64,000 nt of DNA from Cyanobacteria bacterium FACHB-63. Its GTDB lineage: Bacteria; Cyanobacteriota; Cyanobacteriia; Leptolyngbyales; Leptolyngbyaceae. The notes below the pieces were generated by a model that saw nothing but the letters and a program-made list of their open reading frames with translations, ran no database searches and was not told the DNA's origin. Below are positions 1 through 17,567 of the stretch, piece by piece (position 1 is the stretch's first letter; each line of letters starts with the position of its first letter). The position numbers and the translations under genes were made by a program. The stretch spans positions 124,001-188,000 of the forward strand of contig JACJNX010000077.1 of NCBI GenBank assembly GCA_014695255.1, given 5' to 3'.

Positions 1-53
1 GCCGATCGCTCCGCAAAACAAAGAAATCCTTTACTGAAATCGCAGCGCGAATT

Positions 54-2145: not shown

Positions 2146-2161
2146 AACTTTGAACAACTCT

Positions 2162-2187
2162 AAAGGGGCAAGGTGCCCCTTTTTTTG
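2162..2187 (+). terminator. Rho-independent terminator after the ComFB gene
   Basis: A 9-bp stem AAAGGGGCA/TGCCCCTTT closes a 3-base loop and is followed by a run of Ts. It lies between two convergent genes. The T-tract is strong only for the plus-strand gene. Confidence 0.9.
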
Positions 2188-2195
2188 TGCCCTTT

Positions 2196-2663
2196 TTAAC
2201 GAGATTGCAGTCCGAGATAATGAACTATTGGGAAGCCTGCGGCTAAATCCTGCCAGAATCGATCGCGTAATTCCTCTGGATACACAATGACTTGATCTAG
2301 CTCAATTTGCTTAAACCAGCGAAGCTCTGTAATCCAATCAGAATCAGGCGAAGTCGGGGGGAGGTGTTCGAGCGTGAGCGTACCGGAGAAGCGATCGACC
2401 ACGCAGAAGAATTCGCAACTACGAACATCTGATTCACTGTCGTAAAACTCTCGCACATAAGCAATGCGCGACAAACTAGCGGTCAGTCCAGTTTCTTCAA
2501 AGATTTCACGAGCGGCACAGGCAAAAATTGAATCGTCTTCCCGCTCAATGCCGCCACCGGGAGGAATCCAAATCGTGCGTCCAGTTTCGGGGCATTTGTG
2601 AGCCACTAATAGAATCTCATCTCCCTGCACAACTAAACCAGCCGCCCGAATTCGGTGTTTCAT
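2196..2663 (-). CDS. Nudix hydrolase
   Basis: This 155-residue single-domain Nudix protein hydrolyses an unknown nucleoside diphosphate linked to X. The Nudix box runs from Gly38 to Leu60: G-x5-D-x7-REIFEETGL. The metal-binding core REIFEETGL is intact, but the usual first Glu of the box is Asp44. It follows the L,D-transpeptidase gene by only 8 bases on the same strand, so the two are probably co-transcribed. Substrate is not predictable; MTH1/ADP-sugar type and house-cleaning roles are both possible. Confidence 0.88.
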   Translation of the reverse strand: MKHRIRAAGLVVQGDEILLVAHKCPETGRTIWIPPGGGIEREDDSIFACAAREIFEETGLTASLSRIAYVREFYDSESDVRSCEFFCVVDRFSGTLTLEHLPPTSPDSDWITELRWFKQIELDQVIVYPEELRDRFWQDLAAGFPIVHYLGLQSR

Positions 2664-2671
2664 ACAAATAT

Positions 2672-3241
2672 CTAAGGCTTAACGACGATCGGAGTTCCAA
2701 TCTGTACCTGTTTGTAGAGTGCAACAACATCAGCATTTCTCATTCTGAGACAGCCATGCGAAACGGCTTGTCCTAGCAAGGAATAATCTGTCGTTCCATG
2801 AAAACCAATCAGCAGTTTGCCCTGCGACGTGAATCCGATCCAGCGCTTACCAAGCGGATTATCTTTGTGTCCGGGCGCAATCTTCTCACCTGTGATTGGA
2901 TGTTGCCACGCAGGATGCTCGTACATTTGCTGCACTTTAAAGGTGCCTGTCGGAGTTTCCCAGCCCTCTTGCCCGATCGCAATCGAATAAGTTGCGGCTA
3001 ATTTCTTCTGTTGATACAAGCGGACTTTGCGATCGCTCAGATCTACAACTAATTCTCTTTCGATTACGGGAGATGGCTCTGGGGTCGGAGTCCTGAGCGC
3101 TTGAAAATTTGGCAGTTCAAGTTGAGGCATTGAGATTGCCGGAAGCCGCTGCAACTGCAGAAGCGCGATCGTGCAGCCCGTAAGAACGCAAATCGTCATT
3201 AAGGCTCTAGCAAGAGACGAATTTTGAACCTTTGTCGCCAT
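2672..3241 (-). CDS. L,D-transpeptidase (YkuD domain)
   Basis: This 189-residue envelope enzyme would make 3-3 peptidoglycan cross-links or attach proteins to peptidoglycan. Residues 11-30 form an N-terminal membrane anchor or signal sequence, followed by a Pro-rich linker (about 50-60). The catalytic signature is complete: His148 in FHGTT and S161-H-G-C164-LRM with the nucleophile Cys164. The extra LysM or peptidoglycan-binding domain seen in many homologues is absent. It is the first gene of a likely pair with the Nudix gene. Confidence 0.92.
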   Translation of the reverse strand: MATKVQNSSLARALMTICVLTGCTIALLQLQRLPAISMPQLELPNFQALRTPTPEPSPVIERELVVDLSDRKVRLYQQKKLAATYSIAIGQEGWETPTGTFKVQQMYEHPAWQHPITGEKIAPGHKDNPLGKRWIGFTSQGKLLIGFHGTTDYSLLGQAVSHGCLRMRNADVVALYKQVQIGTPIVVKP

Positions 3242-3517
3242 TACTTCTTATTCAAACTGCTGCAATTTTCTTATTTTGCCCGGAACCTCGACTGCAACCC
3301 TTGAATCTCTAGACGCAAGTAGATTCATATCACAGGTATACCACTGTCAAAACGCAACGTAGTTATTACGGTCGTAATTTCACTCATCCGGATAGTTGAT
3401 GAATTTGAGAAACTATAACCACGGTTAGATGAAGCGGCACTTGACAATGGTTCAATTTCCGATTCGGAATCTACAATGCTGGGAGTGTGGTGTTTCGGTT
3501 TAGAGGAGGACGGAGTG

Positions 3518-3664
3518 ATGAAAGAAAAGTTTTTTTTGGCGATCGTAATTACTTTTTCACTAAGCTGCCTGCAAAACTGGTCAATTCCGACTGCGACTCA
3601 AATAAAAGACTCCATGCAGGAGCAAACCTATCACCTCGCTCGCGTTTGGAGTGACCTGCTTTAA
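3518..3664 (+). CDS. Possible small membrane or secreted peptide
   Basis: This is a 48-residue reading frame starting MKEKFFLAIVITFSLSC, with a hydrophobic N-terminal segment and a Cys that could be a lipobox or membrane anchor. A good Shine-Dalgarno (GAGGA) lies about 9 bases before the ATG, the main reason to list it. I recognise no family. It sits alone between the transpeptidase and sigma-factor genes, and could be chance. Confidence 0.33.
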   Translation: MKEKFFLAIVITFSLSCLQNWSIPTATQIKDSMQEQTYHLARVWSDLL

Positions 3665-3813
3665 GCGTATTTCTATTGCAGGAACTCTCCAGTAAGAACG
3701 GGCACGAGATATCCTAGATAAGACCATTCGATCGCGCCTTTAAACTCGAAGGAACTTTTTCAACCCGTGTGCTGTCATCTATAGCGGAACGTCAAACATA
3801 CCGTTATCCGCCC

Positions 3814-4473
3814 ATGAGTCAGTCCCTTCCTGTATCCTGGTCATCGATCGAGCCAAAGGTTCTTCAGAGTCCAGTGCAAGCAGAAAAACTCTCTAATTAC
3901 GATTTAGTGTTGCAGTGTCAGACCGGACATCGCCCAGAGAAAGCCGTGTTTTCGGAACTCATGCGGCGGTATCAGTCTCATGTCGATAAAGTTTTGTATC
4001 ATCTCGCTCCGGATTGGCAAGACCGCGCCGACCTCGCACAAGAAGTCTGGATTCGCGTCTATCGCAACATTACCCGACTGAATGAACCTGTGAAGTTTCG
4101 GGGCTGGCTCAGCCGGATCGCCACGAATCTGTTTTACGATGAGCTTCGCAAACGCAAGCGCAATGCTTCTCCACTCTCACTCGATGCGCCGCTATCGCTC
4201 GATGACGGTGAAATGGATTGGGAAATTGCCTCAGCAACGCCAGGGCCGGATGAAGATTTGACGACGCGGGAATTTTACGATCAGTTGAATGAAGCGATCG
4301 CTGACCTGCCCGAAGTGTTTCGCACGACGATCGTCCTGCGCGAAATCGAAGGAATGGCGTATGAAGAGATCGCTGAACTGACCGGAGTTTCGCTTGGAAC
4401 CGTGAAATCGCGGATTGCAAGAGCGCGTCATCGCCTCCAGTCCCAGCTCCAGCAGTATCTTGACGGACATTAA
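3814..4473 (+). CDS. sigG: ECF RNA polymerase sigma factor, SigG type
   Basis: This group 3/4 (ECF) sigma factor of 219 residues directs RNA polymerase to stress promoters, probably envelope stress. Region 2 contains DLAQEVWIRVYRNI and FRGWLSRIATNLFYDELRKR; region 4 contains LPEVFRTTIVLREIEGM and GVSLGTVKSRIARAR. The acidic linker with SLDDGEMDWEIA is typical of cyanobacterial SigG. The ATG at 3814 gives the MSQSLPVSW start; a GTG at 3769 is an in-frame alternative. The next gene encodes a membrane anti-sigma factor, as in Nostoc SigG/SapG. Confidence 0.92.
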   Translation: MSQSLPVSWSSIEPKVLQSPVQAEKLSNYDLVLQCQTGHRPEKAVFSELMRRYQSHVDKVLYHLAPDWQDRADLAQEVWIRVYRNITRLNEPVKFRGWLSRIATNLFYDELRKRKRNASPLSLDAPLSLDDGEMDWEIASATPGPDEDLTTREFYDQLNEAIADLPEVFRTTIVLREIEGMAYEEIAELTGVSLGTVKSRIARARHRLQSQLQQYLDGH

Positions 4474-4635
4474 GCCCACTAAGCAACGTTACAGCCTTCA
4501 GATTGGCTTTGATATTATGCTTCTAGACGTAACCCAAAATGAGAATTGTGCTTTGAGGAGTGGTTGATTACACTAAGTTTCATATCTTGCAGGCATTCTC
4601 AATTCAATGTCTTACCTCATTGATAGTGACCCTCG

Positions 4636-5151
4636 ATGAACTCCAATTTTGATTCGCTTAATAACGCTATGCAACCTTTGCCTGATTCACAGTTAAACGC
4701 CCGCGACCGCTTTGAGTTACTCAGTGCCTATTTAGATGGGGAAGTGACTGCGAGCGAACGCAAACAGGTTGAAGAATGGTTATCTACCGATGCCTCTGTC
4801 CAACAGCTACACGCTCGATTACTGAAGCTTCGTCAGGCTTTCCGCTCGATGCCTGCTCCAGCGCCGTCTCAACCTGTTGAAACAACGGTGAATCAGGTGC
4901 TGGCAAAAGTCGATCGTCGTCCAAAGCTCCGCTTGGTGTGGGGGGGTGCCGCAATCGCGGCTGCCTTTATGGGTGCAGTTTCGCTGTTTAGCGTGCGCCA
5001 GGCTCAATTTGCCGAAGTGAATCCGCCCCAGCAGCCGACCGTACAAGCACAGCAGCAGCCTGCTTCAGAAGTAACAGACGGAATGATGGTGGCGCTCGAT
5101 CGTCCAGTGGTATCGATCAAAACTGCTGATCCTTCAAAACAACGCAACTAG
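4636..5151 (+). CDS. Anti-sigma factor partner of SigG
   Basis: This is a 171-residue single-pass membrane protein. Residues 24-70 (RFELLSAYLDGEV, then an E-rich helix) form an RseA-like anti-sigma domain without the zinc Cys/His motif. One transmembrane helix (about 100-118, GGAAIAAAFMGAVSLF) follows, then a short Gln/Pro-rich outer tail. Position directly after the ECF sigma gene supports the role: it should hold SigG at the membrane until the outer part is processed. The 162-base gap may contain a separate promoter. A strong terminator follows. Confidence 0.87.
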   Translation: MNSNFDSLNNAMQPLPDSQLNARDRFELLSAYLDGEVTASERKQVEEWLSTDASVQQLHARLLKLRQAFRSMPAPAPSQPVETTVNQVLAKVDRRPKLRLVWGGAAIAAAFMGAVSLFSVRQAQFAEVNPPQQPTVQAQQQPASEVTDGMMVALDRPVVSIKTADPSKQRN

Positions 5152-5172
5152 AAAGATTTGATAAATTTCTTT

Positions 5173-5205
5173 GCTCGTAGTGCGATCACTACGAGCTATT
5201 TTTTT
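5173..5205. terminator. Bidirectional-looking terminator
   Basis: A perfect 10-bp stem GCTCGTAGTG/CACTACGAGC with a 4-base loop is followed by ATTTTTTT. It ends the anti-sigma transcript and overlaps the stop codon of the convergent GGCT-like gene. Confidence 0.9.
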
Positions 5206-5606
5206 GAGTGCCAAATGCCATCGGGAACTGGAATTCCGTTTAGACGATCGATTTGTTCTAGAGTCATGACATACGCCCAAGCTAAACCGATTAAATTGCC
5301 GACGAGACCAAAAACTTCGATTTCCTTGCGTTCGTAATTATTATCTAAGCCGAATAAGGCGATCGTTTCAGGGTCGTGCTGTTCGTAATCGTCAAGGACT
5401 TCTAGAATGGCGCGACCGTTAAAACTGAGAAGATAGCCGTAAGTCGCAGCGTTTCCAGGAACGATCGCGGGATAACCAAGAGGTAAATGATAAAGCGCCG
5501 CGTGAACGATCGCCGGGACTGCGGAAATAACGGAATCTCTACAAAGAAAGTAGCTCGTTTCATCAGGTTTTAACGTGCCATAGACGAATACGTTGATAGA
5601 CTGCAT
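5196..5606 (-). CDS. Gamma-glutamylcyclotransferase-like (AIG2/GGCT) protein
   Basis: This 136-residue protein has the GGCT/AIG2 fold. The signature YGTLKPDE lies at residues 9-16, a substrate loop HLPLGYPAIVPG follows, and the conserved LDDYE is near residue 73. Family members release 5-oxoproline from gamma-glutamyl peptides or amines, but the cellular substrate of this subgroup is unknown. It is probably monocistronic; the divergent cupin gene starts 40 bases from its ATG. Confidence 0.85.
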   Translation of the reverse strand: MQSINVFVYGTLKPDETSYFLCRDSVISAVPAIVHAALYHLPLGYPAIVPGNAATYGYLLSFNGRAILEVLDDYEQHDPETIALFGLDNNYERKEIEVFGLVGNLIGLAWAYVMTLEQIDRLNGIPVPDGIWHSKK

Positions 5607-5645
5607 GGCAACACCAAAGCAATTTTGTTAATTTTATTTGCTCCT

Positions 5646-6134
5646 ATGACTGAATTACCGATTAAGTGCTTAACGCAGCCGTTGATGGACTCGATCGCCG
5701 AGCAAGCCCGCTCTAGTCCGCGCCAGCGCAAGAATCATAACTTTCATGAACATCACGATCGAGTGCAGCGATTTCTGAACGTGCTGCAACCTGGAACTTA
5801 TGTGCGTCCCCATCGCCATGTCCGTCCAGCCGATGCCGATGGATTTGAGTTCTTTTTGGTGCTACAAGGCGCGATCGGGATTTTGATTTTAAACGAATCA
5901 GGCAGCGTAATTCACACCGAAAAAATTAGTGCAACGGGCACAACGCGAGGGGTGGAACTTGGAGAGGGAATGTTTCACACACTGATTGCATTAGAGCCAG
6001 ACACCGTAATGTTTGAATTAAAGGAAGGTCCTTATGTGCCAATGGACGATAAGGACTTTTTGCCGCAATTTCCGTTAGAGAATACGCCTGACGCAAAACA
6101 ATGGATACAAACTTGGCAGGGCTATTTTGCCTAA
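5646..6134 (+). CDS. WbuC-family cupin metalloprotein
   Basis: This 162-residue single cupin starts at ATG 5646 (MTELPIKCL); an upstream in-frame TTG at 5625 is unlikely. The metal ligands are visible: His56 and His58 in RPHRH, Glu68 in FEFFLVLQG and His111 in MFHTLIAL. WbuC proteins are found near O-antigen genes in other bacteria, but the reaction is not settled. No polysaccharide genes adjoin it here, so a general small-molecule role is equally possible. Confidence 0.85.
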   Translation: MTELPIKCLTQPLMDSIAEQARSSPRQRKNHNFHEHHDRVQRFLNVLQPGTYVRPHRHVRPADADGFEFFLVLQGAIGILILNESGSVIHTEKISATGTTRGVELGEGMFHTLIALEPDTVMFELKEGPYVPMDDKDFLPQFPLENTPDAKQWIQTWQGYFA

Positions 6135-6159
6135 TTGCCCTACCAGAACATTGTGAGTG

Positions 6160-6498
6160 TCAAAAACACTGTCCTGCAATTCCAACGGTCTGAACTTCTG
6201 TATCTATGAACTTTGTATGATAGATACTGAGTAACAGATAATTTTTGCGGTAGGTGTGCAGTGAAGTTCCTGAAGCAGTCACAGCGTTTGGTAAGGGCAT
6301 AATCACCGGACAAAACACTCCAGCCACTGAGTTCTGCTCACAAATCTTGTCCTTGAGTTTTTCGGCAGCATAATGACTACAAGCCTCTTGGTCGGGATTT
6401 GTAAGTCCTAATACTGTTAACACTGCTAATCCAGCAGCAATATAAACTCCCCAGGGACGATTGGGAGGCGAAGATTGCGGAACAAAAGTCTGAGCCAT
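6160..6498 (-). CDS. DUF4359 protein with one membrane helix
   Basis: This 112-residue protein has one N-terminal transmembrane helix (about 17-33, GVYIAAGLAVLTVLGLT) followed by NPDQEACSHYAAEKLKDKIC. That pattern, and YLLLSIYHTKFI further on, match the cyanobacterial DUF4359 family, whose function is unknown. Four cysteines lie in the outer domain, so disulfides are possible. It follows the small membrane gene by 25 bases on the same strand and is probably the last gene of the tubulin-like operon. Confidence 0.72.
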   Translation of the reverse strand: MAQTFVPQSSPPNRPWGVYIAAGLAVLTVLGLTNPDQEACSHYAAEKLKDKICEQNSVAGVFCPVIMPLPNAVTASGTSLHTYRKNYLLLSIYHTKFIDTEVQTVGIAGQCF

Positions 6499-6523
6499 GA
6501 TAACAATTCTCCTGAACTAAGGT

Positions 6524-6685
6524 TTAGTGGTGTGAAGAGTTGCGTCGAGACTTTGAACGGCTGCGAGCAGTCGATCGCGGTATCCGGGGAGGCTGGAGTC
6601 TAATTGGAGGTGAATGATGCCAAGCTATTACAAGCCAAAGCGCGATCGCGATTCCTAGACTGAAGCCCAATAGTAAAGCGGTCAT
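6524..6685 (-). CDS. Small membrane protein coupled to the tubulin-like gene
   Basis: This 53-residue protein has a hydrophobic helix (residues 3-22, ALLLGFSLGIAIALWLVIAW) and a very basic Arg/Ser/His-rich tail, so the tail should be cytoplasmic. Its ATG overlaps the stop codon of the 967-residue gene (ATGA at 6682-6685), the classic arrangement for translational coupling and the main support that it is real. A longer in-frame start at 6736 exists but would run inside the upstream gene. No family recognised. It could tether the tubulin-like protein to the membrane (inference). Confidence 0.6.
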   Translation of the reverse strand: MTALLLGFSLGIAIALWLVIAWHHSPPIRLQPPRIPRSTARSRSKSRRNSSHH

Positions 6686-9585
6686 GATTCCTGCACTGCG
6701 ATCGTATTGTTGCGCCACCAATCCAGCCGCTTCCATAGTTCGCGATCGATGTCTTCGCTAAGATAAGCGGCAATCTCTGTTTCGAGTGGATCAAGCGGTG
6801 TAATTGCTTCTTGATGCACAGAGCGCAAGTGATTGAGGCGATCGTAGATTTTTACAGGACAGGCTTGATAGAGACAGTTAAAGTGACTGATCAGATCGAC
6901 TAAGCACTGATAGCCAATCCTGCTACAAAGCAGCTTACGGCTATCTTCTAGAGGGATAGTATGTTGCGCTGCCTTAATAACATAGCGATTGCTTGAATGG
7001 AGTTGAATGCGTCCTAAGATCCAGGCATAAATCACAGCAATTTCAGCTTGCTCGATCGTGGGGTCTTGTCCGGGAAAAGGCAGATACCGCGCTCCAACGA
7101 TCGGATGAAACTTCTCGAAATAAGTTACCTCAGCAATTTGGTGATAGTTCTGAACGGCGATCGGATAGTGCGCCCAATAGCTATAAGGTAATACGGCTCG
7201 ATACTGAAGAAAGATAATCTTATCCGGGTCGCCTGTGTCGATCTCCTGATACCCCCGTTCTCGGCTACTGTACCAATTGAGTAGCTGCGGTACATTTCTT
7301 TGATGAGCTTTATCAATTCCGAGTAAGCGAATCACAAAGGTTCCATGCTCCTGGTCACAGCTTCCTTTTAGTTCAATAAACTCGAATGATTGTCGATCGA
7401 GTTGTTTTAGCACTCTGCCTAACTCTGTCTCTTGGGGAAATCGGTGATAAAGCTCTGTTACAACGTGCAATCCAGAAAGCTGCGGCTGCAAGGTGACTCC
7501 CGCTTCCAGGAGCAATTGAGCTTTGAACTCGATCGGATCAATAAGAAAAGATAGTAATTGAGACTGATCGAGAAGTGGATTGATCAATCGCTCGATCGCA
7601 CAAGCTTCTCCCGCTTTTGGCAAAATGCGCTGATATCCTCGACTTAAGTCTGATTCTGTCTCATGAAGACAGAAACCATTCGGGCATTCAAACTCAGGAC
7701 GATAATGAATGAGGCGCTGTTGATCAAAGGTGAGTTGTGTTCGCAAATCTGCAATCGATCGCTCTGCTTGTTCGATTTGATTGAGCAACTGACTGACAAT
7801 CTGTTGCAGTTGCACCAGAGTTTCAATGCTAGCAAGATGAGCCGCCCTGGAAATCATAGCTGAATAGTATCGATTGAAAGCATTGCTTCGCGCTGAGTTC
7901 CAAGGTTGTAGCTGTGATGCAATCTCCTGCTCGATTTGGGCGCTACGGAATCGATAGAACGGGGCTTGTCGTTTCCGTTCAATTTCCTCTAAACACTCTG
8001 GTACCTGTGCTGCAAACGAATCTAGGCACTCTTGGCATTGATTCACCTCATCATCAAATCGCACAATGTCTTCGACTGCCCCAGTCTGAATGCGATCGAG
8101 CCATTTCAACAATTGCTCTAGAAACTGTCGAGTTGCACAAAGCCCTTTATTTAGCTCTTGAATCCAAGCAGTTATTTTTTGCTCAAGCTGAACTTTACAG
8201 CTTTGCAGCACCGCCGATCGTCGCTCCTCGAAGACCTGATTTAGATCATCATAGGGCTGTAATGCTTGTCGAAAAGCAAGCTGAGTCGCTGTAGTGCCCT
8301 GAGTTAACTGTGCAGTATCGGGAAGTGATTGTAGCGATTGTTCAAGCAGTCCGATCGTTCGCTGTATTGTTAATGGGCAACCCGACGGAGCAATTTCGTC
8401 TAACAGTCGATCGAGCAAGTCCCGTTGTCCCTGCCCTACTAAAAGCCGTTGCTGCACTAGAAACGATAGAACGCTTTCTTCGATCTCAGGAATTGCTAGA
8501 GGATGGAGAAATCGATCAATAAACGCCACCGACAACCGCAGCTTACTGTAAGCTTCCAAGCGATCGCGACCTAGATCAATCGTGGCAAGCCCAATGCTCG
8601 ATGCAAATTTTGGCTCTCCAGCGAGTGTTAGTTCTCGCGATCGAGTTTCAAAATCAACCGATTGAGCCGCGAGTCTTGCACCGATCGAGGTTGTTTCCAG
8701 CGTTAGAATCAGTTCCGAAACCATGCTGATTAGGCTTTCAACCTTTAAGCCTTGGGCATTCGACGCATGATTGGTATCTGAAATCAGAATCGTTTTAACA
8801 GGCTTTGAACGAACTGTTTCTAGCCCTACTTTACCTGCAACTCGTTGACGATGCACATGGTACTCAGTTGCAATTGCAGCGCGATCCTTGAAGACGGCAA
8901 CGGTATTAGCTCGACTATTTTCGATGTCTTTTGCAACAGTGGAACCTCCCGGAATCATCAAAATGCAGGTTAGGTCAATTTCAAGGTTCATGCTTGCAGC
9001 AATCTCTAGCACCAGTTGTTCCAGCAGATGCAGACTACCACTCGCAAAGCCGCCGAAAGTTGAAGCGACTAGAATGACTCGCATCGGCTCATCGCCTCGA
9101 TCGACTGATTGTTCGAGTCGAGCCGCTTGGAATCCTCGTTGCAACCGCTCCTTAATCGCTTCTTGATTCACTTTCACGGCAGCATACCCGTTTGGACGAT
9201 TGCCACCCGCAGCGTTTGCGGCTCCTCTCAAAGCGCGAGTGCTATGAGGATTGAGATTCTCGTAGTGTTCTAACTCAGTATGACCAGAGCGGCGACCGAG
9301 TTCAATAGTTTTTAGCAGGTCTTCATTTGGCAGTTTGCAGTGCAGAAGCTGATCGGGCTGCAAACTGCGAACAGTGTTATGCAGCGGGACGTGACAAGGA
9401 TAAGTATGAGTTGCGTCGATGTCGATCGCTAAGAGTCGAATCTTCTTCAAAAAGGCGCCACGCTGTTTCAATAGAACTGAATTCTGCTGCTGTAGACGAT
9501 CGAGTTCACGCTGAATTCTTCGATAGATGTCGATGCATACGCTTCCCGGTGTGGTTCCAACGGTAAGCACAAGGGTAGATCTCAT
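6682..9585 (-). CDS. Tubulin/FtsZ-like protein (Tubulin_2 family)
   Basis: This is a 967-residue cytoplasmic protein. The N-terminal ~270 residues look like the divergent tubulin/FtsZ GTPase fold: a first loop LVLTVGTTPGS (5-15), an AGGNRPNG segment (126-133) and a glycine-rich loop FGGFASGS (177-184) standing where FtsZ has GGGTGSG. A PGG turn follows at 212. Residues about 430-640 are strongly helical with coiled-coil character; the C-terminal third is globular. FtsZ itself is about 400 residues, so this is not the division protein. It lies between a receptor-like gene and a coupled membrane peptide, divergent from a Ser/Thr kinase. GTP binding and filament formation are inferred. Confidence 0.72.
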   Translation of the reverse strand: MRSTLVLTVGTTPGSVCIDIYRRIQRELDRLQQQNSVLLKQRGAFLKKIRLLAIDIDATHTYPCHVPLHNTVRSLQPDQLLHCKLPNEDLLKTIELGRRSGHTELEHYENLNPHSTRALRGAANAAGGNRPNGYAAVKVNQEAIKERLQRGFQAARLEQSVDRGDEPMRVILVASTFGGFASGSLHLLEQLVLEIAASMNLEIDLTCILMIPGGSTVAKDIENSRANTVAVFKDRAAIATEYHVHRQRVAGKVGLETVRSKPVKTILISDTNHASNAQGLKVESLISMVSELILTLETTSIGARLAAQSVDFETRSRELTLAGEPKFASSIGLATIDLGRDRLEAYSKLRLSVAFIDRFLHPLAIPEIEESVLSFLVQQRLLVGQGQRDLLDRLLDEIAPSGCPLTIQRTIGLLEQSLQSLPDTAQLTQGTTATQLAFRQALQPYDDLNQVFEERRSAVLQSCKVQLEQKITAWIQELNKGLCATRQFLEQLLKWLDRIQTGAVEDIVRFDDEVNQCQECLDSFAAQVPECLEEIERKRQAPFYRFRSAQIEQEIASQLQPWNSARSNAFNRYYSAMISRAAHLASIETLVQLQQIVSQLLNQIEQAERSIADLRTQLTFDQQRLIHYRPEFECPNGFCLHETESDLSRGYQRILPKAGEACAIERLINPLLDQSQLLSFLIDPIEFKAQLLLEAGVTLQPQLSGLHVVTELYHRFPQETELGRVLKQLDRQSFEFIELKGSCDQEHGTFVIRLLGIDKAHQRNVPQLLNWYSSRERGYQEIDTGDPDKIIFLQYRAVLPYSYWAHYPIAVQNYHQIAEVTYFEKFHPIVGARYLPFPGQDPTIEQAEIAVIYAWILGRIQLHSSNRYVIKAAQHTIPLEDSRKLLCSRIGYQCLVDLISHFNCLYQACPVKIYDRLNHLRSVHQEAITPLDPLETEIAAYLSEDIDRELWKRLDWWRNNTIAVQES

Positions 9586-9613
9586 TGATGCTCTCCAAAA
9601 ATTCAGAAGGTAA

Positions 9614-9669
9614 CGGAGAAACTGTACAAATTGATCACAAATCTTGTTACAGTTTGTCCAATTTCTCCG
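9614..9669. other. Two-level inverted repeat upstream of the tubulin-like gene
   Basis: An outer stem CGGAGAAA/TTTCTCCG (8 bp) encloses an inner pairing AACTGTACAA with TTGTTACAGTT (one bulge). It occupies about half of the 104-base gap between the receptor-like gene and the tubulin-like start. It has no T-tract, so an attenuator, mRNA-processing site or operator is more likely than a simple terminator. Confidence 0.6.
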
Positions 9670-9689
9670 AGCGATGATGTATCAAGCAA

Positions 9690-10790
9690 TTACTGTGCAA
9701 AATAAGCCGATGAAGTTTTCCGTGTAGGCAGCTTGCACAATGGCTGAATCCGCCAGCAGATGTGTTGATATTGAATGCGCGAGGGTGTGTATTTATCTAA
9801 CGGCAAACCCTGGGGTGGCACAGAAATCCTGTTGCAGGTTAAAGCTTTCTGCGAGTATGGCATTAGATACAGATTGCCTTGTGAGTTTGTAATCTCAAAA
9901 ATTCGACCTTCGACATTGGGCAGCGATTTCACTACATAGGTGCATTTGAAGTCACCAAAAGAAGCCGGAAACGTAAAAATCTTCTCATCCGCAATCCGTG
10001 TTCCGTCTTTTCCCCCTGCATTACATTCCTCTGTCACCAGCAGGCATTTAACTGTGTCAGTCATTGGGGTTGGCGATACAAGCGATCGGGGAAAAGAAGT
10101 CCGTTTTGGGGGTTTGCGGAAAAGGAGCCAGAGTCCGATCGTGCCAGCTACACAGGCACTGCCAACTAAACTCACTATTGCCCAAGGAAAATTCGACCCG
10201 TTACTGGGTGTCGGAACTGACGGAGTCACAATTGGAATGAGTCCGAGTCTCTTTAAGCCATAACAAAGATCCTGTTGAAGCATTAGGTCTTTTGGACGAT
10301 CGCCGCGATCGAGATTAACAATGCCCTGAGCCTTAGCAATTTGGAAATTACGATCAGTCCACTTGCCTGAACGCTTAGGAGCGGGACGTTCAGGAACCCC
10401 CTGAGTTTGACTTAGAATTGCAAATCCTTCGTCTCTTCTCAGGAGACGATTAGGATAAAACCGTCCATTCTTTTGATCGACGCTCATCCAACCAAGCGCG
10501 ATCGCTTTTTGAATCTGCCCATAATTCGGATGCGCCTTGGAAACATCGGCAACCTTGACGGGCTGAAACTGATTCCAATCAATAGTAGACCCCATAATTT
10601 GAGCCATCATTGAGCGAGTCACCTTACGGTTAGAAGTTTGATTCGAGCAAATGGTTGACTCATTTGGCTCGAAACGAAGAATCGAAAGGTCTTGAGCTTG
10701 AACGGAAGGAACGGAAATACTGAACAATAACGCCGCTACGAATACAAGAGACGTAAGCCTCTGCATTCTAGTGAGTGAGGAGGTATTCAT
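9690..10790 (-). CDS. Single-pass membrane protein with SLH-like outer domain
   Basis: This is a 366-residue protein when started at ATG 10790 (MNTSSLTRMQR); an in-frame ATG at 10835 adds 15 residues before the signal sequence. A signal peptide ends near VQA (about residue 32). The outer part contains an S-layer-homology-like pattern: VADVSKAHPNYG, IQKAIALGW, FYPNRLLRRDE. A transmembrane helix (about 202-225) is followed by FRKPPKR, so the C-terminal ~140 residues should be cytoplasmic. That domain is not recognised; it has several Cys. It is probably first in the operon with the tubulin-like gene and could link cell wall to cytoplasm (inference). Confidence 0.7.
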   Translation of the reverse strand: MNTSSLTRMQRLTSLVFVAALLFSISVPSVQAQDLSILRFEPNESTICSNQTSNRKVTRSMMAQIMGSTIDWNQFQPVKVADVSKAHPNYGQIQKAIALGWMSVDQKNGRFYPNRLLRRDEGFAILSQTQGVPERPAPKRSGKWTDRNFQIAKAQGIVNLDRGDRPKDLMLQQDLCYGLKRLGLIPIVTPSVPTPSNGSNFPWAIVSLVGSACVAGTIGLWLLFRKPPKRTSFPRSLVSPTPMTDTVKCLLVTEECNAGGKDGTRIADEKIFTFPASFGDFKCTYVVKSLPNVEGRIFEITNSQGNLYLMPYSQKALTCNRISVPPQGLPLDKYTPSRIQYQHICWRIQPLCKLPTRKTSSAYFAQ

Positions 10791-10892
10791 GTGACAAAAT
10801 AGAGGTAGGTTTTTCGGCACCCTGAGTTGATTCATTCAACGACTTGGGGTGTTCTTCTTGTTTTAAGACTACGCTAGAAGCAATATATTATC

Positions 10893-10990
10893 CTGTCAAT
10901 ATGTTCAAGACAGATAGACAGAATACAGAATCCCTGAACATTTTGAACAGATAATTAGGCTATCGATGTACAACCCGATCGACAGGAGGG
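10893..10990. promoter_or_regulatory. Divergent promoter region with short repeats
   Basis: The gap between the receptor-like gene and the 1093-residue gene holds an inverted pair CTGTC (10893) / GACAG (10909) and two related segments ending ACAGATA (about 10911 and 10948), plus CTGAACATTTTGAACAG. A strong Shine-Dalgarno AGGAGGG (10984-10990) fixes the start at 10997. No known operator matches. Confidence 0.4.
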
Positions 10991-10996
10991 TTCAAG

Positions 10997-13900
10997 ATGG
11001 CAACTCGATACTCAGGTGATGCTTATCAAAATGATCAAACGCAAGACCAAACACAGTCTGCAACCCGTCGAAGCTCAGCCGATCAAGAGCGAGATAAAGC
11101 AGTCTACGAATACTTACTCAATAGTTTAACTGACTTAGGATTAAAGCGATCGGACACTCAATTTAATGACAAGCCAGTTAAGCCGAATGAAAGCTTGATT
11201 GCAGCGCAATGGGGACAAAAAGACAATCGCATCTTTGTGCGTCGAGTGCTTAGAACTGTCCTTCCAGAACGCTATGAAGGTGAGACGACTGACTATAAGC
11301 TTCCCGCGTTAACCCTGGGTAAGCTAGTTGAAATCTTAGAAAGCATTCAAGAATATTGGGCTAAACAAGACCCGGAGCACTTCAGTAGACAAGTTCCCAA
11401 AATTCTAACTCGTGCTGAAAAGCGAAAAGCCTTATCTAAGTTTTCACAACTCTCGATCGAGGAACGATCGCGGCTCAAGCTTCCCATTCGCCCTAGCGAT
11501 GTTCTCATGAAACAACTGGTCGAGAGCATGACTGATCCGGTACAAGGACTGAGCGACGACGAAGCTATTCGGTTCTATCAGATGACGCAGGATTTCTATC
11601 AATCTGTGCGTAGCGATGTTCGGAGTTTAATAGCTCCGGATAAGAATGCCGATAAAGACCAAGAAAGCCCAGTTCGGCGATTGGTCAAAAAACGGGTTCA
11701 AACATTGGTCAAAGAGCATTTTCGCCAGCGTCCGAATTCAGAGAAGCAGGTGGAAGTGATTGATAAGTTAGTTCGTAAAATTGAAAGAGAGATCAGCCGA
11801 GTCTCATTTCAATGCGGCTTTCGCCAGGTAGAATCGCTGCTGAATAAAGAACAGCATCCCAATAAAGAGCAATCTAAGATTGCAGATAGGTGTCTGCCTC
11901 AATCCTTTGTCGAACATTTGATTCGCTCTCTGTTTGAAAACGAAATTCTGACCGATGAGTTTCCTATCTATATCAAGCACTACACGGTCGAGAAAATCCG
12001 ACCGCTGCCGCTCTATTTCAAAACCAAAGATAAGCTGAGTGGTCTTCTCAACCCGGAGCTATTAGACAGCCTAGAAAATGAGGATGAAGTGAATGGTCTA
12101 GAAAGGCAATTCGCCTACAAAGTCGTTGTTCACTTTTATGTAAAACTGCCAAACCACTACAAACCCCCCTTTCCAAATCCGAACTCTAGTGCTGATAATC
12201 AAATTTCTGAGCAAAGATTTGATTTCTTTGAAGAAGTGAGAGGTGTAGGGAGCTTAATCTCACTCATTACTTCAGCGATCAACTCGGTTCTATTATCGGG
12301 AATACCCGTTTTGCAGGAGAAGAAATATTTTCCGATCGCTCAAGAGCGCTTACGAATCAACGAAGTGATCGGACAGAATGGCTACAATCCCGTTTGGTCA
12401 CAGAATCACGTCAGACTCTGCAAAGAGCCAGATATTAAAGCTGCCATCGACACCCAGAAACCTTATGAACAAGTGGTGCAGGATCTTGAGCTTTCTCATG
12501 GTGAATTTTGTGGATTTGATTTGATTGAAGTCACGGCTAACGCAGCCCTTTATGCTCGATTAAGAGCCATTAAAGAGGCTGGGATTGATGCAGAGCGATA
12601 CATTACTGAGTTATGCAATCGCGTTCTAGAATCACAAGCCCTCAAACAAGCAACATCTTACCTGGAACTCTACCCCTTTTCGCTGAGAGCAATGGAAGCT
12701 CACCTCGATCGCACTGTTTTTTACGCAAATCGATATCGCAGTCGCAATCGACAGTTTGAATTCAAAGAGCAAGAGCCAAAGAAGCCTTGGAGCCTGATCG
12801 CATATGATGCCCATCTTGCGATCGCTCGTGCCTATTTGATGGAAGGACTGTACCGAGTGGGCAAACGCTATCTCGATGTTCTCAAGCCTCATATAGACAA
12901 TGGTTTTCTGTCGGATGCACAGCTTGCAAAATATCAATTATGTCGCTATCGGTACTACAATCTGGCTGATCTAGACGATCGAGACTATTTCCCGGATTCG
13001 GGTCGCTTTGAGGCAGTGCGTCGCGCTTACAATGCACTGGATCAAGCAGAAAGGCATATTCATGACCGACTGAGAAAATATCATGTCCTCGATGAGTTCT
13101 CACAAAGTAACTTCCACCCTTCCTGTTATCTACTATCAAAAATTAATGCTCATCGCGCCAAACTGTACATTTTTGCGTCTGTATCCGTACCGAGTGACGG
13201 TCGCCAGTGGGATAACCTCACTCTACCAATTCGACTGCTAGAGAAGGCACGAATCTATGCGGCTCAGGATGGTGCAACATCAGAATACAGCTATTGGTCT
13301 GCTTACCAGAGTTGGTGCTATCTTATGCTGGCATATCTACGCGATAGTAATCACCCTAGTTCCTCTTCTAAGCTTGCCTTGATCACCTTTCAAGAATGCA
13401 TAGATTGGGCGCGGCGATTGATTGATCATGCGCTGATTTGTTACTCCTCGCTCGGTCAGCAATGCTATCAGACGATCAAAGACAATGGTGGGAGAGTGAC
13501 AGAAGATAAGCGAGACACCAAGACTGGACTGAAATACTATGAGAAGTATGGCAACGTTGAGATACAGATGTTGCCTTTTATCGAAGAAAGTAAAGCTCAG
13601 GATGAAGAAAATGAGCCAAACAAGGATTCACGCATTCTTCGGCTTGATTTATCGTTGCTTAAAATAGAGCGCGAAGTCTGGCTGGGTAATAGAGATATGA
13701 TTCATCTACTGGGCACTCATTCGGCACTGTTGTTGTTTCCAATGGGAATGCTGGAACTCTGCGAGGAGCGAGAGCAGCCTGCACAGCTTAAGGAAAAGGT
13801 GCAAAAGGCGGAAAAGCTATTTACTTATGCTTGGGCAACCGCCAGCGATGGAGTTTTGCCTGAGCTTGAGGGCGATCGCTTGTTTCTCGATCGTAAGCTA

Positions 13901-14278
13901 GAACTTGATGATCCAAGGCTGGATCGAGAAGCGCTAATCCAAGGTTTATATCCACACCGATTAACGCAGTTTGCTGATTTGGGTAAGGTGTTTGCTGCGG
14001 TTTGTAAAGTTCTACTGCTACCGGAGAATCCTGAAGAGGCCGAAACCCAATGGAGGCAAATTTGGTATCTTCTAGATGCTTTGCATTGTGGAGAGCATAG
14101 TGGCTCTGAGACGATTCTAGAGCAGCGGCGCTACAATGGGCACCTTTCGACGCATTTCAAAAACATCCGCAACTATTTTCATCTGTTACAGAACACTCCG
14201 CTTGAGGGCAGTATGATTGAAAGACGGGATCGCATCATCAAGCAAGTATTTCAATACATTCTAGGGCGCAATGAATAA
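10997..14278 (+). CDS. Large helical protein of unknown function (tubulin-like module)
   Basis: This is a 1093-residue cytoplasmic protein without signal peptide or membrane helices; no family recognised. The first ~30 residues are Gln/Asp-rich and disordered. Residues about 30-330 are charged and helical; the middle (about 330-600) looks globular; the C-terminal half has paired helices such as AYLMEGLYRVGKRYLDVLKP that resemble TPR-like solenoids. The start is fixed by AGGAGG 7 bases upstream. The kinase gene begins 15 bases after its stop, so the two form an operon, divergent from the tubulin-like operon. It could be a kinase substrate or a scaffold (inference). Confidence 0.75.
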   Translation: MATRYSGDAYQNDQTQDQTQSATRRSSADQERDKAVYEYLLNSLTDLGLKRSDTQFNDKPVKPNESLIAAQWGQKDNRIFVRRVLRTVLPERYEGETTDYKLPALTLGKLVEILESIQEYWAKQDPEHFSRQVPKILTRAEKRKALSKFSQLSIEERSRLKLPIRPSDVLMKQLVESMTDPVQGLSDDEAIRFYQMTQDFYQSVRSDVRSLIAPDKNADKDQESPVRRLVKKRVQTLVKEHFRQRPNSEKQVEVIDKLVRKIEREISRVSFQCGFRQVESLLNKEQHPNKEQSKIADRCLPQSFVEHLIRSLFENEILTDEFPIYIKHYTVEKIRPLPLYFKTKDKLSGLLNPELLDSLENEDEVNGLERQFAYKVVVHFYVKLPNHYKPPFPNPNSSADNQISEQRFDFFEEVRGVGSLISLITSAINSVLLSGIPVLQEKKYFPIAQERLRINEVIGQNGYNPVWSQNHVRLCKEPDIKAAIDTQKPYEQVVQDLELSHGEFCGFDLIEVTANAALYARLRAIKEAGIDAERYITELCNRVLESQALKQATSYLELYPFSLRAMEAHLDRTVFYANRYRSRNRQFEFKEQEPKKPWSLIAYDAHLAIARAYLMEGLYRVGKRYLDVLKPHIDNGFLSDAQLAKYQLCRYRYYNLADLDDRDYFPDSGRFEAVRRAYNALDQAERHIHDRLRKYHVLDEFSQSNFHPSCYLLSKINAHRAKLYIFASVSVPSDGRQWDNLTLPIRLLEKARIYAAQDGATSEYSYWSAYQSWCYLMLAYLRDSNHPSSSSKLALITFQECIDWARRLIDHALICYSSLGQQCYQTIKDNGGRVTEDKRDTKTGLKYYEKYGNVEIQMLPFIEESKAQDEENEPNKDSRILRLDLSLLKIEREVWLGNRDMIHLLGTHSALLLFPMGMLELCEEREQPAQLKEKVQKAEKLFTYAWATASDGVLPELEGDRLFLDRKLELDDPRLDREALIQGLYPHRLTQFADLGKVFAAVCKVLLLPENPEEAETQWRQIWYLLDALHCGEHSGSETILEQRRYNGHLSTHFKNIRNYFHLLQNTPLEGSMIERRDRIIKQVFQYILGRNE

Positions 14279-14293
14279 GCTATCGATAGTGCA

Positions 14294-15670
14294 ATGGATC
14301 AACTGATTGGAAAAGTTCTACACGATCGCTATCAGATTCAATCGCTGCTAGGTCGTCAGGCTGGGCGCAGAACATTTTTAGCGACTGATTTACAAACCGC
14401 GACATCGGTGGTGATCAAGCTATTATTGTTTGCGCCCGATTTTACCTGGGATGATTTGAAGCTATTTGAGCGGGAGGCAGCCGTTTTACAAGCGATCGAT
14501 CATCCCGCCATTCCTCGATATCTCGATGGCTTTGAGACTGAGACGGGGTTTGCGATTGTTCAAACTTACATCGAAGCTCGATCGCTGCAAAATTGGGTAC
14601 AGTCCGGGCGCACGTTTAGCGAAGCAGAACTAAAAGCGATCGCGAAAGAACTATTAAACATTCTAGACTATCTGCACAGTCGCCAACCTCCGGTCGTGCA
14701 TCGCGATTTGAAGCCGAGTAACATCCTATTGAGCGATCGCACCGGAAATAGTCCCGGACAGGTTTATCTGATTGATTTTGGTTCTGTGCAAACGGCAATT
14801 CAGGCTGGAACACGCACGATCGTTGGAACTTACGGTTATATGCCGCCAGAGCAGTTCGGTGGGCAGACTGTTCCGGCTTCGGATCTTTATGCTTTGGGTG
14901 CAACGCTGATCTATCTTGCAACTGGGCAGCATCCGGATCAGTTACCGCAGCGTGAATTAAGGATTTTGTTTGACGATCGCGTGAATCTCAGTCCTGCCTT
15001 CGTTGACTGGCTGAGATGGTTAACGGAACCCAGTTTAGATTTAAGAGCGCGATCGGCACAGCAAGCCCTACAAGCATTAGAAACATCGCGACAAAGCTTA
15101 GCGATCGCGAAACCGAGTGGAAGCAAAGTTCAAGTCAGGCAGTCTCGACGACAGCTAGAGATTTTAATTCCAGCGCGTGGATTCCATGCAGGATTAATTC
15201 CGCTCATCGGATTTGCAATTGCATGGAATTCGTTTCTAGTGGTGTGGTACAGCGGCGCAATCGCGATTTGGGCTTCTGGAGGATGGGTTATGGCAGCATT
15301 TGCGATCGGTCATCTCGGCGTGGGTCTATGGATGATTTGGCGCATCTTGTTTGATTGCTTTGGCAAAGTTAGATTGCAAATTACTGATTCAAAGATTTCT
15401 CGCAGAATGGAGCTACTAGGAATACATACCTTTTCGACGATCGGCGATCGGCAGGACATCAAACAAATTGAGCTTACCAGTGTTTCGCACAAGTCCGATA
15501 GTGAAGGTGGAACAATTAGGATTCCGCCTCAAATTAACATTTGGGCAGGTACAAAGAAGTTCTCATTGGGAGGTGGAGACAATATTACCGAATATTTAAC
15601 TCCACCGGAATTAGACTGGCTTGTGCAGGTGTTAAGCAAGTGGCTGAATCTCCCAATTACGAAGAACTAA
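14294..15670 (+). CDS. Membrane Ser/Thr protein kinase
   Basis: This is a 458-residue Hanks-type kinase. The kinase domain (13-265) has a glycine loop LGRQAGR, Lys42 in VVIKLL, HRDLKPSN at 136-143, DFG at 161-163 and a GTYGYMPPEQ activation segment end, so it should be active. Two hydrophobic segments follow (about 299-320 and 330-350), then a ~100-residue C-terminal domain of unknown fold. With two helices both ends would be on the same, cytoplasmic side. It is co-transcribed with the 1093-residue gene. The AfsK/PknB type is the nearest general comparison, but no PASTA or TPR sensor is present. Confidence 0.9.
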   Translation: MDQLIGKVLHDRYQIQSLLGRQAGRRTFLATDLQTATSVVIKLLLFAPDFTWDDLKLFEREAAVLQAIDHPAIPRYLDGFETETGFAIVQTYIEARSLQNWVQSGRTFSEAELKAIAKELLNILDYLHSRQPPVVHRDLKPSNILLSDRTGNSPGQVYLIDFGSVQTAIQAGTRTIVGTYGYMPPEQFGGQTVPASDLYALGATLIYLATGQHPDQLPQRELRILFDDRVNLSPAFVDWLRWLTEPSLDLRARSAQQALQALETSRQSLAIAKPSGSKVQVRQSRRQLEILIPARGFHAGLIPLIGFAIAWNSFLVVWYSGAIAIWASGGWVMAAFAIGHLGVGLWMIWRILFDCFGKVRLQITDSKISRRMELLGIHTFSTIGDRQDIKQIELTSVSHKSDSEGGTIRIPPQINIWAGTKKFSLGGGDNITEYLTPPELDWLVQVLSKWLNLPITKN

Positions 15671-15884
15671 TTTCGCTGTCTTTGAGTTGGGTTGCCAGTT
15701 GTCGCACTGTTTCTAACGGATCAATCCCTTCCGGTAACTTATCCGTGCAAATCTGAACAATCCGAGGAAATCCGAGCGCATCGCCGCTTTTGTGTCGTTT
15801 TGCGGCTTGAACTCGATCGAATTCTTGCAATGTATGTTCTTTTAACCAAGCCGTACCCCAAAACCAAGCTTGCTCAAATCGGCT
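15657..15884 (-). pseudogene. C-terminal gene remnant, truncated
   Basis: The minus strand encodes 75 codons of protein-like sequence ending in a TAA that overlaps the kinase stop tail to tail by 14 bases. It reads FEQAWFWGTAWLKEHTLQEF, then KRHKSGDALGFPRIVQIC and LPEGIDPLETV. It has no start codon and is cut by TAG at 15885-15887. A small palindromic element lies just upstream. I do not recognise the parent family. The clean amino-acid composition suggests a recent loss of the 5' part. Confidence 0.5.
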
Positions 15885-15904
15885 CTAGTGCTGGATCAAG
15901 ACTA

Positions 15905-15970
15905 AAAATTAGGGTTAACGTCTCCGAAACGACTGCTAAACAAGCCTTTTCAAAGGTCAACCCTAAAATT
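15905..15970. repeat. MITE-like palindromic element
   Basis: Terminal inverted repeats of 15 bases (12 of 15 matching; core TAGGGTT / AACCCTA) flank a 36-base centre. The element lies directly upstream of the truncated remnant and 17 bases from the stop of the radical SAM gene. It is too short to code. It may instead be a transcription terminator-like hairpin. Confidence 0.4.
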
Positions 15971-15986
15971 AAGCTGTAACGGTGCA

Positions 15987-17567
15987 CTAGCCGACTGCGA
16001 CGGGTTCATCTATCCGGGGAGGATTGAGCGGATCATGTCCGATCTGCTGAGCAATGCGCTCTCTTGCTAAACTACGATATTCAGCAAAATGCTCTCCGGC
16101 TGCACACAATCCAATATAGAGATTCAGCGATCGCGGTCTGCGGCGGATCATTTCCCAGAGTTGCCGCCAGAACTGGACGCGAATGTCTTTTCGACAAATG
16201 CCCTGAAGCCAAATCACCTGCATGATCAATCGGAGTCCCTTTCCGAGTGGGAAATGCAAGCTTTGACGCAGCCGTGGATTCGGAGCAATGTCTAGACAGT
16301 GCTGAAAACAGCGCTTCAGGTAGTTCGTGGGTTCATACAATGTCCAAAGTGTACTGATGTAGTCGTGAGCAATCTCATCGAGCGATCGAGTGGGATGAAA
16401 ATTCATCAAGGTATTTTGATCCCCGACTTCTAGGGCATCTTGGTGACTCCGCCGCAATCGATTCTCTCGCTTGAGTCGCTCCCATAAATCGGTATTGGGA
16501 AGCGCCTGAAGAATCCCTACCATCGGTTGCGGAATTTGGGTTTCTTCCACAAATGCTCGAATGCGATCGCCCGCTCCCGGTCGCTCTCCATCAAATCCCA
16601 GAATAAATCCAGCATAAATTAACAATCCCGCCTGTGTAATCGTGTGACAAGCTTCAATCAAAGGACTACGGGTGTTTTGATATTTACGAGTGGTTTGCAA
16701 ACTATCTTGATCGGGTGTTTCAATCCCCAGAAACACTCCATAAAAGCCGGCTTGCACCATCAAATCTAACAGTTCTGGATCATCAGCCAGATTGACGGAT
16801 GCCTCGGTGACAAAGGTAAAGGGATAATGATGTGACTCCATCCAGGGAATCAGGTCGCGCAAGAATCGTTTAACGTTGCGCTGATTGCCAATAAAGTTGT
16901 CATCCACAATGAATAATGAGCCGCGCCAGCCGAGATCATAAAGAGCTTGAAGTTCTGCGATCGCTTGCTGCGGCTCTTTTGTCCGGGGCTTACGTCCATA
17001 AAGTGTAACGATGTCACAGAATTCGCAGTTAAACGGACAGCCCCGCGAGAACTGAATCGCCATCATCAAATAAGCATCTAAATTGAGTAAATCAAATCGC
17101 GGAATCGGACTCGTAGTGACATCAGGCTTCTCTACACTGCGAAACACTCCTTGTTCTGCTCCGGTTGCAAGAGCATCAATCCACTGTGGAACTGTCAGTT
17201 CTCCTTCATCTAACACAAGATAGTGAGCACCTGAAGCTAAAGCTTCTTCTGGCAGCGAGGTTGGATAAGGCCCCCCCACCGCAACTTTCTTACCGCATTG
17301 CACTGCTTTTTGAATCAAGGTATGAAAATCGGCTTTTTGTGCCAGCATTGCAGACAGAACGACTAAATCACACCAGTTCCAATCGTCTTCGGTTTCGAGT
17401 TGCACATTGCGATCGCGAAACCGCACCTCCCACTCGGCTGGCAGCAATGCCGCCACCGTGAGAATTCCGAGCGGTGGAATAAAAGCTTTGAGTCCTGCCA
17501 TCTGCATAAAGCGATCGTACGACCAAAACGTTTTAGGAAACTTGGGATAAAGCAAAAGCACTTTCAT
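15987..17567 (-). CDS. B12-binding radical SAM protein (DUF4070 type, HpnP-like)
   Basis: This is a 526-residue enzyme. The N-terminal ~140 residues form a cobalamin-binding domain (MKVLLLYPKFPKTFWSYDR; VGGPYPTS). The radical SAM centre has RGCPFNCEFCDI, the C-x3-C-x2-C cluster ligand, followed by YGRKPRTK. The C-terminal part matches DUF4070. Families with this architecture include HpnP, the hopanoid C-2 methylase, and many uncharacterised methylases, so the substrate is open; a lipid is plausible. It stands alone, convergent with the kinase operon. Confidence 0.88.
   Translation of the reverse strand: MKVLLLYPKFPKTFWSYDRFMQMAGLKAFIPPLGILTVAALLPAEWEVRFRDRNVQLETEDDWNWCDLVVLSAMLAQKADFHTLIQKAVQCGKKVAVGGPYPTSLPEEALASGAHYLVLDEGELTVPQWIDALATGAEQGVFRSVEKPDVTTSPIPRFDLLNLDAYLMMAIQFSRGCPFNCEFCDIVTLYGRKPRTKEPQQAIAELQALYDLGWRGSLFIVDDNFIGNQRNVKRFLRDLIPWMESHHYPFTFVTEASVNLADDPELLDLMVQAGFYGVFLGIETPDQDSLQTTRKYQNTRSPLIEACHTITQAGLLIYAGFILGFDGERPGAGDRIRAFVEETQIPQPMVGILQALPNTDLWERLKRENRLRRSHQDALEVGDQNTLMNFHPTRSLDEIAHDYISTLWTLYEPTNYLKRCFQHCLDIAPNPRLRQSLHFPLGKGLRLIMQVIWLQGICRKDIRVQFWRQLWEMIRRRPRSLNLYIGLCAAGEHFAEYRSLARERIAQQIGHDPLNPPRIDEPVAVG

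Follow-up and report, generated by a model that had tools for sequence, protein, structure and literature searches.

The window analysed here is a 64,000-nucleotide stretch of contig JACJNX010000077.1 from Cyanobacteria bacterium FACHB-63 (G000; genome size 7.2 Mb), in which six genes form two divergent units around a gene for a divergent relative of the FtsZl1 tubulins. Transcription of the minus-strand unit runs from an SLH-like envelope protein (381 residues; 9690..10835) through the Tubulin_2/FtsZl1-like protein (967 residues; 6682..9585) and a 53-residue peptide with a single transmembrane (TM) segment and a basic tail (6524..6685) to a DUF4359 protein (112 residues; 6160..6498). The plus-strand unit starts from the shared intergenic region of 161 bases (10836..10996, from the coordinates) and encodes a protein of 1093 residues (10997..14278) followed by a Ser/Thr protein kinase (458 residues; 14294..15670). 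The original prediction had read these genes as one system for wall sensing, signalling and polymerisation but left the DUF4359 protein unnamed. Its positions for the open reading frames (ORFs) of 967, 381, 1093 and 458 residues were all recovered, as were the 15 bases between the stop of the 1093-residue gene and the kinase start, and the ATGA in which the start of the membrane peptide overlaps the tubulin stop; the ORF listing gives this peptide a longer frame of 70 residues from an upstream ATG. A palindrome upstream of the kinase, CTATCGATAG, did not exceed chance expectation, promoter-like and terminator-like sites fell below the shuffle means, and an Rfam scan of positions 5500 to 17000 returned no match at the gathering threshold.

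Pfam analysis assigned residues 9–356 of the 967-residue protein to the Tubulin_2 family (PF13809; E 8.5e-15, 55.3 bits in comparison to a cut-off of 27), which bears out the FtsZ/tubulin-like identity first proposed for it, and this N-terminal domain (residues 1–360) is followed by an apparently helical and coiled-coil remainder. The T4 GTP-loop signature reads GGFASG at residue 178 (context VILVASTFGGFASGS), in comparison to GGTGSG in 31 and GGTGAS in 7 of the 40 cyanobacterial loci compared in matching context; the two loci outside this count were a fragment that shows GGTGSG outside the position filter (L069) and one that gave no match (L070). The glycine-rich signature of the GGTGSG type that is used to recognise FtsZl1 proteins is absent from the window protein, and its T1 loop is also altered (VGTTPGS), where 36/40 of the other loci match the pattern GxGG[TS]G. 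GTP binding of the usual type is doubtful because both the T1 and T4 loops are altered, and because the signature loop reads GGFASG the protein is classed, on its sequence, as a divergent Tubulin_2 homologue and not as a canonical FtsZl1 GTPase.

Tubulin_2 matches were present in 75 of the 386 genomes drawn from the phylum, with the strong matches (>300 bits) mostly being open frames of about 1050–1170 residues, and the window protein scored 58.5 bits in the same survey. A search with the 967-residue protein itself found its own genome only among these 386, and an order-level search matched 3 of 42 genomes, its own included. The only match in G017 and one of the three in G020 were rejected as coiled-coil likeness (24–25% identity within the coiled-coil range; E 1.2e-4 and 5.5e-4). 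No relatives were confirmed in genome and viral contigs using short exact peptide patterns, which are sensitive to close relatives only, and none were found in plasmids.

The 381-residue protein had been described as an envelope receptor. Its SLH-like outer part, single TM helix (220–238) and cytoplasmic tail (residues ~240–381) were upheld, while the proposed signal peptide is a reading of the first of its two hydrophobic segments (24–42). The Pfam SLH model (PF00395) remained below its cut-off (16.5 vs 20.8 bits) yet residues 12–196 matched a frame in another cyanobacterium with 30% identity (E 6.3e-9, the best non-self match), so the label SLH-like was adopted. Matches at E<=0.001 occurred in 24 of 373 genomes, its own counted, where the best-matching frame reads as a three-repeat SLH protein and the four inspected matches read as SLH-repeat proteins; hhalign of the protein against ten neighbour families found nothing. 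Both small proteins of the unit also have a hydrophobic segment, detected for the 53-residue peptide by a scan of the 70-residue frame and located at the N-terminal residues 15–33 of the DUF4359 protein (PF14271; 37.9 bits, cut-off 27). Among 40 family genomes 38 have a DUF4359 gene, usually a single copy, with two each in G000 and G020, and the gene at 6160..6498 is the weaker-scoring of the two copies in its genome.

For the 1093-residue protein, Pfam gave nothing above cut-off, NCBIfam and PADLOC nothing at E<=1 and PHROGs nothing at E<=0.01, and a PDB sequence search with its profile gave no match at E<=1. An AlphaFold2 model built from 20 sequences (predicted local distance difference test, pLDDT, 71.8; predicted template modelling score, pTM, 0.71) has a helical N-terminal part, an alpha/beta region at residues ~320–535 and a predicted TPR-like superhelix at residues ~540–1090. 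Structural alignment of this model using VIA-align gave Z 18.2 with NprR (5.6 Å, 293 aligned) and Z 18.1 with Rap (4.4 Å, 279 aligned), two TPR sensors whose N-terminal parts differ from that of the window protein, and the comparison denotes a likeness in fold only, as helical repeats easily give high Z values. Foldseek found no match to the model at E<=0.001, and neither a TPR model nor LeuA_dimer (PF08502) was among the 22 Pfam families matched at E<=1 by any of 20 family members. The alpha/beta region may resemble the LeuA regulatory domain (LeuA-dimer-like), a weak lead whose placement is our own reading, as Foldseek rows for LeuA had probabilities of 0.96–1.00 with E values of 0.02–0.2, and a profile comparison of 29 rows, including one in the wrong frame (L144_+0), scored 21.2, just above the best of 60 column shuffles (18.5). 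Comparison of the 1093 profile with six neighbour families by hhalign gave nothing.

The kinase downstream of this gene was identified by PF00069 (124.8 bits, cut-off 31.7; E 5.3e-36) and its N-terminal kinase domain appears to carry the K, HRD and DFG motifs. It had been described as a two-TM kinase; the kinase assignment stood, while the hydrophobic scan reported one segment (299–317) ahead of the C-terminal domain and the second helix is a reading. Of the 41 family genomes, counting the kinase's own, 40 have homologues of it at E<=1e-60, and the closest full-length homologues outside the block (G018 and G019) adjoin other genes. PADLOC matches of this kinase to PD-T4-6 models were taken as generic kinase likeness.

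Comparison with congeneric genomes demonstrated that the six genes behave as one bounded cassette (6131–15668). DNA identity between the window and G020 was about 92% across the flank and the cassette, the match ended with the kinase gene (stop at 15668), and the 18.6 kb of G020 that follow showed no match to the window. The cassette in G020 is at the same place and partly deleted: its tubulin gene lacks residues 1–478 and is interrupted by ORFs that read as transposase, there is no SLH gene, and most of residues 1–683 are gone from the 1093 gene, while the kinase is intact and the TM peptide is kept. A second congener, G023, is collinear with window positions 52–6130 (79%) and then diverges; in the 18 kb fetched from it neither the DNA of the block nor any of the five larger products found a match, and the cassette is absent at this locus.

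The ratio of non-synonymous to synonymous substitution (dN/dS) was calculated between the window and G020 for six comparable stretches from five genes, as G020 has neither the SLH gene nor the part of the tubulin gene for the N-domain with its altered loops. The values were 0.10 for the kinase, 0.12 for residues 684–1093 of the 1093 protein, 0.19 and 0.11 for two parts of the tubulin gene (which include one in-frame stop), 0.24 for the DUF4359 gene and 0.36 for the TM peptide (52 codons), indicating purifying selection on five of the six genes. Synonymous divergence (dS) was 0.13–0.31 in the cassette stretches and 0.27–0.28 in three flanking genes. Most likely, the cassette was already present before the window and G020 lineages separated and was under selection until its recent break in G020, because it occupies the same locus there, its dN/dS values are low and its dS is near that of the flanking genes.

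Relatives of the 1093-residue protein were found at 21 loci, all of them cyanobacterial, one a fragment (L136). A plasmid search gave one plasmid; the family is present in 5 of the 386 phylum genomes (its own included) and no relatives were confirmed in viral contigs. Upstream of each of the 20 long copies, the closest ORF that reaches 120 residues lies on the opposite strand, as judged from mechanically called ORFs, with shorter plus-strand ORFs (84–116 residues) intervening between the 1093 gene and the divergent ORF in L119, L127 and L132. This divergent partner belongs to one FTP-type cluster in 13/21 loci (with the small ORFs between in L132), a count that does not represent independent events as the genomes are related. 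In 11 of these 13 loci (L116–L119, L121, L122, L125, L127, L128, L131 and L132) the FTP-type gene is followed by a gene of an M4-protease cluster, and in L129 and L133 the contig ends at that point. The single FTP-type protein scanned with Pfam scored 26.6 bits (cut-off 21), Peptidase_M4_C matched both M4 proteins scanned, at 111.8 and 28.3 bits (cut-off 24.4), and the remaining proteins were assigned by clustering; the M4 proteases appear to carry the HExxH zinc-binding motif and to have no signal peptide. Other divergent partners were a DUF4359 operon in Stenomitos (L123), two TM proteins (L124, L126 and L130) and, on a Pseudanabaena plasmid (L062), a TM protein in which we read a vWA-like DxSxS motif and which had no Pfam vWA match. 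At the other 1093 loci, clustering found neither a tubulin nor an SLH protein like those of the window. A protein of about 410 residues is located directly before the divergent DUF4359 gene in both L138 (7193–8749), a stretch with no 1093 gene, and L123 (5972–7650).

The tubulin-like gene was compared with 40 cyanobacterial Tubulin_2/FtsZl1 loci, whose neighbours were clustered. The commonest operon type, found in ten of them (L080, L081, L082, L085, L088, L089, L091, L096, L100 and L101), encodes a single-TM protein, the tubulin and then ZorA-like and ZorB-like proteins; with PADLOC the best E values were 1.8e-11 and 4.5e-16 for the ZorA-like protein of the two loci scanned and 1.5e-6 for the ZorB-like protein of one. 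The window operon resembles this type in having a single-TM protein (about 360–390 residues in the other loci) directly before the tubulin and membrane proteins after it. It differs in that the first protein of the common type looks vWA-like on its outer side (a reading, with no Pfam match in the one scanned) and the tubulin is followed by the ZorA-like and ZorB-like proteins, in contrast to the SLH-like protein, TM peptide and DUF4359 protein of the window, and no homology to the ten-locus type was detectable outside the tubulin.

FtsZl1 proteins were predicted in 2010 to be tubulin relatives that act in membrane remodelling (Makarova and Koonin, PMC2875224), and the Tubulin_2 model of Pfam covers these FtsZ-like sequences, as stated in the relevant passage of PMC9871819. 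Features described in the former paper (PMC2875224) and shared by the window proteins are an N-terminal tubulin/FtsZ-like domain with what is, in the window protein, a probable coiled-coil and helical C-terminal part, accompanying membrane proteins and, in some genomes, Ser/Thr kinases. That paper also places a vWA protein in most operons of the family, whereas the block has no vWA, GTPase or OmpA match (none at E<=1 among the six products with Pfam for vWA, or with Pfam and NCBIfam for GTPases) and instead possesses an SLH-like TM protein, a GGFASG loop, a TPR protein and a DUF4359 protein. Tubulins are also a component of the GTPase-centric GAP1-N2 conflict systems (Kaur et al. 2020, PMC7159879). 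As these are outlined in that paper, the window shares with them a tubulin relative with an apparently helical or coiled-coil C-terminal part and wall-facing membrane proteins, but the block has no GAP1, GTPase, FNIII or vWA match. Literature queries combining FtsZ/tubulin with ZorA/ZorB, FtsZ-like proteins with MotA, and M4 protease with TPR and defence revealed no such gene set among the matches listed.

We propose, with a probability of roughly 0.4, that the block at 6131–15668 is a lineage-restricted cassette encoding an envelope-anchored scaffold built around a divergent FtsZl1 protein and provided with a TPR switch. The SLH-like protein would bind the wall on its outer side while its cytoplasmic tail would hold the tubulin-like protein inside the cell, with the TM peptide and the DUF4359 protein possibly serving as further membrane attachments. 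The tubulin-like protein would then assemble or cluster at the membrane and, given the changes in its two GTP loops, would probably turn over GTP weakly or not at all, while the 1093-residue TPR protein would be a cytosolic sensor or adaptor deciding when the scaffold engages, and the kinase made together with it may phosphorylate one of the parts. The outcome may be membrane remodelling or containment. In favour of the proposal are the Tubulin_2 match above cut-off, the limits of the block as seen against G020 and G023, and dN/dS values of 0.10–0.36 at a dS similar to that of the flanking genes. By analogy, the order of membrane protein, tubulin and small membrane protein parallels that of the 10/40 FtsZl1 loci, and the predicted TPR fold, being close to that of the peptide sensors NprR and Rap, is consistent with a switch.

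Several results weigh against this proposal. The set is whole in the window genome alone and left remnants in one congener, so that the co-occurrence of the four large genes in other cyanobacterial genomes that the original prediction had looked for was not found, largely the outcome that it had itself named as speaking against it. The claim that the parts form one system therefore stands as far as the genes share one bounded block in two genomes and falls short in that the four-gene set is not conserved and both the 1093 family and the kinase adjoin other genes elsewhere. A kinase homologue occurred in 5/40 of the Tubulin_2 stretches (up to about 19 kb) and 2/21 of the 1093 loci, a recurrence that we read as background, and the kinase, being a common gene, was rejected as a conserved partner. 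A dynamic polymer is disfavoured by the altered glycine-rich GTP loops, and the polymerisation that had been envisaged for the tubulin-like protein is accordingly doubtful. A hidden Markov model (HMM) of 23 canonical full-length proteins aligned with residues 329–770 only (40.6 bits in a one-sequence search, to which coiled-coil likeness may contribute), leaving the N-domain and residues 770–967 unaligned, and HMMs of the 910-residue and 500-residue Tubulin_2 groups scored 0.3 and 5.5 bits. The single-sequence structure model was poor (pLDDT 40.8, pTM 0.45): Foldseek found no match to it at E<=0.001, and the top VIA-align rows for this low-confidence model, gamma-tubulin (Z 10.0; 4.2 Å, 182 aligned), tubulin (9.6), CetZ (9.3) and FtsZ (9.2), were tied with an unrelated reductase (Z 9.1). 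A homology between the tails of the SLH-like protein and the canonical TM protein, tempting by eye, was not supported by a shuffle test, with a score of -0.6 bits in comparison to the best of 4.1 in 2000 shuffles.

The main rival explanation holds that two unrelated neighbours are present, a membrane operon of the SLH-like and tubulin-like proteins and a 1093 gene whose usual partner is a signal-less M4 protease, with the kinase as a third, ordinary gene, so that the locus and the intergenic region are shared and not the function. We regard this as a serious contender that nevertheless falls short of being probable. It accounts for the 20 long 1093 copies that elsewhere lie beside other genes, most often of the FTP type, and for a common kinase that is found apart from the cassette genes in G018 and G019, but it does not explain why two genomes have the block as one bounded unit, nor why a DUF4359 gene is also present in the divergent operon of the Stenomitos 1093 gene, where the pairing partly recurs. 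A wider proposition, which is possible but which we hold more tentatively, is that the 1093 family is the constant TPR sensor of an undescribed modular cyanobacterial system and is placed divergently from an exchangeable output, namely a split protease (an FTP-type inhibitor-like protein with a signal-less M4 protease) in many lineages, a membrane set in others and a wall-anchored pseudo-GTPase tubulin scaffold in the window lineage.

Alternatively, the block may serve in conflict or defence as a cassette of the type set out by Kaur et al. (2020, PMC7159879), in which a membrane tubulin-type effector is checked by a TPR sensor and is readily lost when it is not needed. The patchy presence of the block, its decay in G020 and the exchangeable operons beside the 1093 family would fit such a role, as would the tubulins of GAP1-N2 conflict systems and the statement in the abstract of that paper that conflict modules are typically acquired in an inactive form. 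This explanation appears unlikely, however, as no GTPase, MoxR, vWA or nuclease match was found in the six products, PADLOC applied to four products matched the kinase to kinase models and otherwise gave one weak LmuB match in the coiled-coil range of the tubulin-like protein (E 0.074), no phage record matched the tubulin-like protein, and four products had no PHROGs family (E<=0.01). The view that the tubulin-like protein is a degenerating, functionless remnant, for which the altered T1 and T4 loops and the broken gene of the sister genome G020 might be cited, is very improbable, being disfavoured by the selection test on the two parts of the tubulin gene that could be compared (G020 lacks the N-domain in which the altered loops lie) and by the intact frame of 967 codons in the window.

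Under the proposed scaffold reading, a small wall-anchored operon has taken up a divergent FtsZl1-type protein and, in one lineage, has been joined to the gene of a TPR protein that elsewhere is most often paired with a split protease. The parts are of known kinds and their combination is new, with the 1093 family as the more novel lead. We know of no demonstrated function for FtsZl1 proteins. A compact version that has no vWA protein or GTPase, and that combines a wall-binding partner with an altered GTP loop, could show which part of the FtsZl1 system is essential and whether a tubulin fold can act as a scaffold at the membrane when GTP is not turned over. The 1093 family provides a further handle, as it has no assigned family and many cyanobacteria carry it next to a split M4 protease.

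Other arrangements were also observed among the Tubulin_2 loci. In the commonest FtsZl1 operons (10/40 by clustering) the tubulin relative adjoins a stator-like pair of ZorA/MotA-like and ZorB/MotB-like proteins. Tubulin_2 proteins of about 500 residues (L072–L078) are followed by a protein of about 700–1110 residues and preceded in 6/7 loci by a four-TM protein; the following protein in L074, the one scanned, showed a weak likeness below cut-off to the actin-type proteins MreB and FtsA. Those of about 910–926 residues (L063–L068) lie between a protein of about 610 residues, with a vWA domain in the one scanned (L068), and a TM protein of about 920–1030 residues.

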